Shown here: positions 16,399-17,262 of the stretch, piece after piece
Numbering within the stretch: the stretch's first letter is position 1
How the letters are laid out: each line of letters opens with the position of its first letter
DNA from: Paralvinella palmiformis
Taxonomy: Eukaryota; Annelida; Polychaeta; Terebellida; Alvinellidae
Direction: 5' to 3'
NCBI GenBank assembly: GCA_025642065.1
Contig: JAODUP010000065.1
Coordinates: 701,501 to 765,500, forward strand
Length of the DNA: 64,000 nucleotides
The notes under the pieces: model-generated
The model's database searches: none
What the model saw: only the letters and a program-made list of their open reading frames with translations
Told to the model about the DNA's origin: nothing
Translations under genes and position numbers: made by a program

Positions 16399-17262
16399 TC
16401 AAATTTTATTGAAGGCAGCAATGTCAACTGATTGGACAAAGTCCTCAAAAGCAGTTATGCTTTCTTCAAGAAAGTCTGTGCCTATTTTGTCATCTTCCAC
16501 AACACAAGAGATCTGTAACTTTTTAATGCCATATGCGAGTGGCACAAACTTGGATGCACCCCACACTAAGCCATCCTTCCGAACGGAACGAACATGTTTC
16601 TCCAACTGCTTCATATCAGTCTCATCATCCCATGGCTTGACGTCAAGAACAATTGAGCTCTTCGCTGCAACGGTCTGTTTCTGAGACTTCCGTTTTTCGT
16701 ACGCTGCAAGCCTTTCCTGTTTAATGCGTTCTGCCTCTGAACCGTCATCATCATCATCCGACCCAAACAGATCAATATCATCATCATCATCACCATCACC
16801 CCCACCACCTAGTGATGTGCCTTCAAAGCCTAGATCATTCAGTGAGAATGGAGGACCCGGAAATGACTCCTTAGCTTTGCCATAGGATTTCATATGATTA
16901 TACCAACGTAGCAAGTGTAAATATTTAACACTTGGCTCACTATCTAGAGTCTTATATACTACTGCATCAGCCTTGGATGGTTGGTAGCCACGGATGTAAC
17001 TCCTATCAGACAGGTAGTTGTTTAAAAAAGTAAAACCCGCATCAGAATTTAGACTGTTCCCCTGACAGTTATTGGCACAAGTTTGTCTGATCCCAAGTTT
17101 CTTTTCAGCAAAAGATACTGACATTTCCATTGCTTGTTTTAGACACGAGATGTCAGTTCCCGTAGCTTGAGCCGACATTTCTTTGCCACCACCTTTACCT
17201 TGCATCAAGCCAGAAACATTGCCTACCCACTCATTTGCCTTCAAACCTCTTGCAACCAATTC
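16399..17262 (-). CDS. EEF1B2: AARS terminal exon: end of C-Ala domain plus complete eEF1B-like domain
   Basis: This 864-base exon (acceptor CCTTTGCAG at its 5' side) encodes 287 residues without interruption. The first 57 finish AlaRS ([20 protein letters not shown] ... SFAEKKLG). Ten linker residues, [10 protein letters not shown], follow where AlaRS normally stops. The remaining 220 residues (eEF1B2 is about 225) are an EF-1-beta. The N-terminal GST-like region has [20 protein letters not shown] and [10 protein letters not shown]. An acidic stretch [16 protein letters not shown] (protein about 1066-1081) holds the casein-kinase-2-type site. The exchange domain has [18 protein letters not shown] and [16 protein letters not shown], ending AFNKI with the penultimate Lys known in yeast to enter the eEF1A nucleotide/Mg site. 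The domain's own initiator Met is absent. Animal eEF1B genes usually have several introns and here there are none, so a retroposed or intron-less origin is possible (inference). Confidence 0.93.

Follow-up and report, generated by a model that had tools for sequence, protein, structure and literature searches.

Does the last exon of the alanyl-tRNA synthetase gene of the annelid Paralvinella palmiformis, which runs without interruption into elongation factor eEF1B, encode both proteins as one polypeptide, and what would such a union bring about? eEF1B recharges eEF1A, the carrier that takes loaded tRNA to the ribosome, and it is an old debate, conducted on the basis of non-covalent associations, whether a synthetase hands charged tRNA straight on to that carrier. 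The exon lies in a stretch of 64,000 nucleotides of contig JAODUP010000065.1, here termed the window. An earlier note on this DNA had proposed a covalent AlaRS-eEF1B frame at this position, the strand not being stated; the coding strand of the fusion exon is the minus strand. The features assigned are collected in Table 1.

Table 1. Positions within the window of the AARS1-eEF1B gene and the parts of its last exon.
Feature	Position	Strand	Evidence
AARS1-eEF1B fusion gene, 20 coding exons, 1184-residue model	16399..34393	minus	tblastn exon model, introns all GT-AG; Pfam
Exon 12, frame disrupted near 23600 as assembled	23575..23689	minus	sequence and comparison with relatives
Last exon: AlaRS C terminus, linker, eEF1B and stop	16399..17262	minus	uninterrupted frame, splice acceptor at 17262, Pfam, PDB sequence matches
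End of the AlaRS C-Ala domain (ELVARG...SFAEKKLG)	17092..17262	minus	58.6% identity to human AARS1 907-964; PDB 5t5s sequence match
Linker, 13 residues, poorly conserved	17053..17091	minus	mean pairwise identity 17% for the linker region (15 pairs, six fusions)
eEF1B N-domain (GST-C-like, eEF1B-gamma-binding type)	16825..17052	minus	PDB 5dqs_D by sequence and fold (TMt 0.73); Arc1p_N_like in Pfam
eEF1B central acidic region with SDDDDD	16669..16824	minus	PF10587
eEF1B guanine-nucleotide exchange domain, C-terminal AAFNKI	16402..16668	minus	PF00736, E 4.8e-35; Foldseek to yeast eEF1Ba-eEF1A complex, TMt 0.93-0.96

The open frame that spans the junction extends from 16399 to 17307 on the minus strand (302 codons, zero stops). 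Within it, the coding part of the last exon opens at the acceptor CCTTTGCAG/GAA at 17262 and continues to 16399 as one frame of 287 codons and a stop. Pfam analysis of this exon matched EF1_GNE over its full length and also located the end of DHHA1/C-Ala and the EF-1 beta acidic region, the SDDDDD of which is presumably a CK2-type site. Thus, the earlier proposal that the AlaRS C terminus passes stop-free into a full-length eEF1B, complete with acidic stretch, exchange domain and terminal NKI, is borne out. The linker had been put at ∼10 residues but is longer, at 30 residues from KKLG to the SYI motif, or 13 if the count stops at LNSDAG. A hidden splice or stop between the two halves was rejected, given that the last-exon frame contains no stop between the AlaRS C terminus and the eEF1B part and that inspection by eye revealed no intron-sized gap. 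The fused eEF1B part has no independent start codon, there being no Met at its beginning, and the N-terminal MGFGDLK of the standalone copy is missing. With that start gone, there is no apparent way to make the eEF1B part outside the AlaRS frame.

The complete gene was modeled by tblastn with human AARS1 as the query, which yielded 20 exons between 34393 and 16402 (stop to 16399) on the minus strand, every intron being GT-AG. The 1184-residue product scored above the Pfam cut-offs for tRNA-synt_2c, tRNA_SAD, DHHA1, EF-1_beta_acid and EF1_GNE, and the first three follow the AARS1 order of tRNA-synt_2c, tRNA_SAD editing and DHHA1/C-Ala domains; judged from its sequence, the gene is that for the cytosolic alanyl-tRNA synthetase, AARS1. 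As assembled, exon 12 is shifted in frame by one base near 23600 when compared with relatives, among which intact frames exist. The frameshift was bypassed in the model by use of an upstream donor, leaving ∼10 residues missing, and the last exon is unaffected by it. For a gene that would be both sole and essential, an assembly indel is the likely cause of the frameshift, which may also account for the absence of a Paralvinella AlaRS from the 120 listed of 7997 full-length matches. Elsewhere in the window, an ORF at ∼46898-47230 on the plus strand, likely a neighboring gene upstream of AARS, matched IMPDH/GMP reductase weakly (E 3.7e-4), short of the Pfam cut-off, and an ORF at 44070-44204 gave zero Pfam matches. 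A cluster of broken ORFs at 10830-12401 on the minus strand, two of which were tested and gave no Pfam match, may be the remains of a mobile element.

A frame of this kind might arise as an assembly chimera or a merged gene model, with no real fusion transcript behind it. The exon 12 frameshift marks the assembly as imperfect, and merged models do occur: P0076, a Gonapodya record with a synthetase read as ValRS joined to eEF1B, is likely to be one, since its end runs into unrelated sequence, and it was set aside. By contrast, the junction in the window falls inside one exon, and AlaRS followed by EF1_GNE was found in at least five other records among the 120 listed of 609 proteins matched by the model's end. 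The same five are within the 120 listed of 7997 full-length matches, where four rank first and the partial P0001 (989 residues) stands lower. One of them is Capitella teleta CAPTEDRAFT_155717, with 67% identity over 100%; the other four lie on contigs of 3.4-4.3 kb (3.8-4.3 kb for P0003, P0004 and P0005), and since such contigs are too short for a gene of ∼20 exons with its introns, these records can be read as mRNAs. The AlaRS of the window is 62-67% identical to P0002-P0005 over its whole length. The covalent frame recurs in Capitella and in four transcript-sized records placed with annelids by the AlaRS tree, and, with the fusion shared by five other records, a chimeric or merged origin was rejected as scarcely credible.

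In the AlaRS tree, the four transcript-sized records group with the leech Helobdella (100/99), a placement from which they are taken to be probable clitellates. The AlaRS model of Helobdella itself stops after an eEF1B N-domain that is 43% identical to standalone eEF1B over 67 residues; the exchange domain, absent from the model, has been either lost or missed by the gene model. The AlaRS proteins examined from Owenia, a brachiopod and a nemertean are unfused, as are those of molluscs among the matches listed. We consider it probable that the AlaRS-eEF1B fusion is genuine, is held in common with Capitella and carries a full eEF1B in one polypeptide, likely placing AlaRS in the eEF1B complex beside eEF1A.

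Mean pairwise identity among the six fusions (15 pairs) was 81% for the exchange domain, 68.5% for AlaRS, 50% for the N-domain, 48% for the acidic region and 17% for the linker. The penultimate Lys, at the AAFNKI tail in the window, is kept in 6/6 fusions; it corresponds to K205 of yeast, the exchange lysine. The distance from the AlaRS end (KKLG) to the SYI motif, 30 residues in the window, is 26-37 residues across seven records, so that length appears to be kept while sequence varies, as for a tether. These properties bear on the possibility that the fusion couples expression only, the polypeptide being cleaved post-translationally to release AlaRS and eEF1B as separate proteins. Both halves are complete and each could work alone, but the linker has no conserved motif, that of the window contains no 2A-type sequence, and MGFGDLK, the natural beginning of eEF1B, is not preserved, which together make a cut of this kind very improbable. 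The fused part and the standalone copy on contig C2091 are 63% identical (135/214 codons), and their differences at codon positions 1, 2 and 3 are 0.26, 0.21 and 0.59, with synonymous sites saturated. This bias among codon positions, together with conservation of the exchange domain, led to the rejection of a recent pseudogene.

An AlphaFold2 model of the last exon (30-row alignment) consisted of separate folded stretches with a mean pLDDT of 78.4 and a pTM of 0.39, a value too low for the relative placement of the domains to be taken as predicted. Foldseek paired the end of the model with structures of the yeast eEF1B-eEF1A complex (5o8w, 1f60 and 2b7b; TMt 0.93-0.96), the K205A mutant structure 2b7b being among the top fold matches, and another part with the eEF1B N-domain of 5dqs (TMt 0.73). 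Matches past rank 11 were disregarded as weak, with the exception of 5t5s (rank 24, E 0.033). Entry 5dqs, which is also named in PMC7160314, combines in one structure the GST-like domain of gamma and the N-domain of eEF1B. The fused N-domain also gave a weak sequence match to PDB chains of AIMP3 (eEF1-epsilon-1; E 1.7e-4 to 6.5e-4), a likeness to the GST-like proteins of the multi-synthetase complex (AIMP3/p18). That complex, in which MetRS and GluProRS are further proteins with GST-like domains, joins synthetases to each other, whereas the worm fusion adds a nucleotide exchange factor.

A search of the genome for EF1_GNE (six candidates scored, five matches) resolved three loci: the window, a complete standalone eEF1B gene kept on C2091 and an eEF1D-like gene on C1942. 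Given that the standalone gene is present, the fused copy is not the only exchange factor of the genome. A search with PF01411 (20 candidates scored, 19 matches) found no second, unfused cytosolic AARS1 in the genome, of which the assembly may be incomplete. The other AlaRS loci were a divergent intron-split gene on C2485, read as mitochondrial AARS2; a fragment on C1834 that contains a stop and resembles one exon of the C2485 gene; and an intronless AlaRS-like ORF of 587 codons on C2134 (333500-337500). This last adjoins a FliG gene, which identifies C2134 as a bacterial contig, either of a symbiont or of a contaminant, within the worm assembly.

Five introns divide the six coding exons of the standalone eEF1B gene on C2091, but none interrupts the fused part. 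On this ground, the likely origin of the fusion is the capture of an intronless eEF1B retrocopy by AARS1; a DNA-level fusion with later loss of introns is a possible alternative. With capture of a retrocopy, the copy would have become attached to the final AARS1 exon in a common ancestor of Paralvinella, Capitella and the clitellates, after which the eEF1B start codon, at the beginning of MGFGDLK, would have decayed. In the eEF1B tree, the fused parts of all six fusions group as a single clade, with support (93/96) slightly short of the tool's own mark. The nearest standalone rows are P0241 and P0299 (84/84) rather than the C2091 copy, which is therefore not established as the parent. The seven fused rows of the AlaRS tree make up a clade only if the unfused P0121 is included (95/97). 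This record is the most identical of all to the AlaRS of the window (71%) and sits beside Capitella inside the fused clade (93/92); it may represent a secondary loss, a shortened transcript or a misplaced row. A constraint holding the seven fused rows together without P0121 was not rejected (p-AU 0.104). Given the placement of P0121, a firm claim of a single clade for the fused AlaRS rows is withheld.

Fusions of synthetases to eEF1B subunits were also found outside the annelids, most of these records being gene predictions taken at the protein level. AlaRS joined to eEF1B-gamma (GST and EF1G in precomputed Pfam assignments) was present in at least eight of the 120 listed of 7997 matches (P0156, P0158, P0175, P0188, P0218, P0221, P0222 and P0232). 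The named carriers are two cockroaches and a katydid, one further record (GFUD) is taken for a copepod, and the fusions fall in the arthropod part of the AlaRS tree. Among the matches listed, six more AlaRS proteins have GST-type domains only, including those of two sawflies, a wasp, a locust and a thrips, and beetles and termites have AlaRS without GST or EF1G domains. The domain sets of P0158, P0222, P0205 and P0180 were confirmed separately. As in the worm, AlaRS in these arthropods bears a C-terminal subunit of the eEF1B complex, but the subunit is gamma (GST and EF1G) rather than the exchange subunit. Given that 5dqs pairs the gamma GST-like domain with the eEF1B N-domain, the annelid and insect AlaRS proteins carry opposite halves of one solved interface.

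PheRS-beta joined to eEF1B was present in at least 65 of the 120 listed of 609 matches (P0006-P0014, P0016-P0070 and P0073), the named carriers being fishes and record P0021 having 27 member sequences. The eEF1B module is the same as in the worm, is also C-terminal and keeps its penultimate Lys in 64 of the 65 proteins listed. By contrast, the synthetase differs, and the five fusions sampled form an eEF1B clade of their own (96/89). Among the matches listed, one record, P0078, combines HisRS with WHEP domains and a complete eEF1B; its joining in the tree with P0076 was flagged as the meeting of long branches and set aside. In P0191 (six member sequences), an eEF1B-type N-domain (38% identity over 76 residues) is found at the N terminus of AlaRS.

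The domains of the fusion protein suggest how it would act. Like its standalone relatives, the eEF1B N-domain would bind the GST domain of eEF1B-gamma and so dock AlaRS; a flexible tether would be provided by the linker and acidic region; and eEF1A would be reloaded with GTP by the exchange domain. On release from AlaRS, Ala-tRNA(Ala) would then encounter eEF1A-GTP that had just been reactivated and was locally concentrated. If the cytosolic AlaRS gene is the only one, the fusion protein would handle the whole of cytosolic alanine charging. Of these steps, docking via gamma is held with the greatest confidence, followed by exchange activity on eEF1A and, last, by uptake of Ala-tRNA beside AlaRS.

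Docking may be the core, or minimal, function, given that a GST-like part persists where the other part is missing, as in the Helobdella model and the six listed arthropod-type AlaRS proteins. Taken further, this would make the eEF1B part a docking tag only, which moors AlaRS to eEF1B-gamma and has merely incidental exchange activity. The Helobdella model with its N-domain alone, the six arthropod-type proteins that retain only the GST part of gamma and P0191 with only an eEF1B-type N-domain at the other end of AlaRS are all in keeping with such a tag. Against it, the exchange domain is the best-kept region of the six annelid-type fusions and the penultimate Lys is invariant in them; this strong constraint suggests that the exchange domain works there too, and a role confined to docking is considered unlikely. 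The preferred reading is that charging, handover and nucleotide exchange would be coupled in one molecule, as the earlier note had proposed, and it is favored by the other synthetase-eEF1B fusions together with the kept gamma-binding-type domain and penultimate Lys.

The closest known arrangement is the ValRS-eEF1 complex of vertebrates, where a GST-like N-terminal domain likewise anchors a synthetase, by binding of ValRS to eEF1B (PMC4394549). That association is non-covalent and involves ValRS; in the worm, a protostome, it is AlaRS that is linked, and by a covalent bond with the exchange factor. The same paper states that the docking (GST-like) domain of ValRS could be restricted to deuterostomes. 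Its references include the title of a study from 1995 on an association of ValRS with EF-1 in the crustacean Artemia, which counts against a strict exchange of ValRS for AlaRS. Among the papers listed by searches of the open-access literature, outside which most subscription journals lie, none described an AlaRS-eEF1B, AlaRS-eEF1G or PheRS-eEF1B fusion, in agreement with the earlier note, to which no AlaRS-eEF1B fusion was known; nor did the available parts of PMC4394549, PMC9437257, PMC11580382, PMC7160314 and PMC12403961 describe one. The Capitella fusion sequence was already public, unremarked.

In AlaRS-eEF1B, the tie between a synthetase and eEF1B is made by a new means, and the findings suggest that some protostomes use AlaRS for the link that vertebrates make via ValRS. 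A broader reading is that animals have repeatedly wired synthetases into the eEF1B complex by fusion (AlaRS with the exchange subunit in annelids, AlaRS with gamma in arthropods, PheRS-beta with the exchange subunit in fishes, and HisRS in another lineage) and that the cytosolic Ala-tRNA of annelids is all made on the machine that recharges eEF1A; we judge the case for it to be evenly balanced. A natural, conserved covalent fusion, with parallels that involve other subunits, makes the question of channeling directly testable. If the broader reading is true, the repeated fusions would constitute direct genetic evidence that aminoacyl-tRNA is channeled to the elongation factor.
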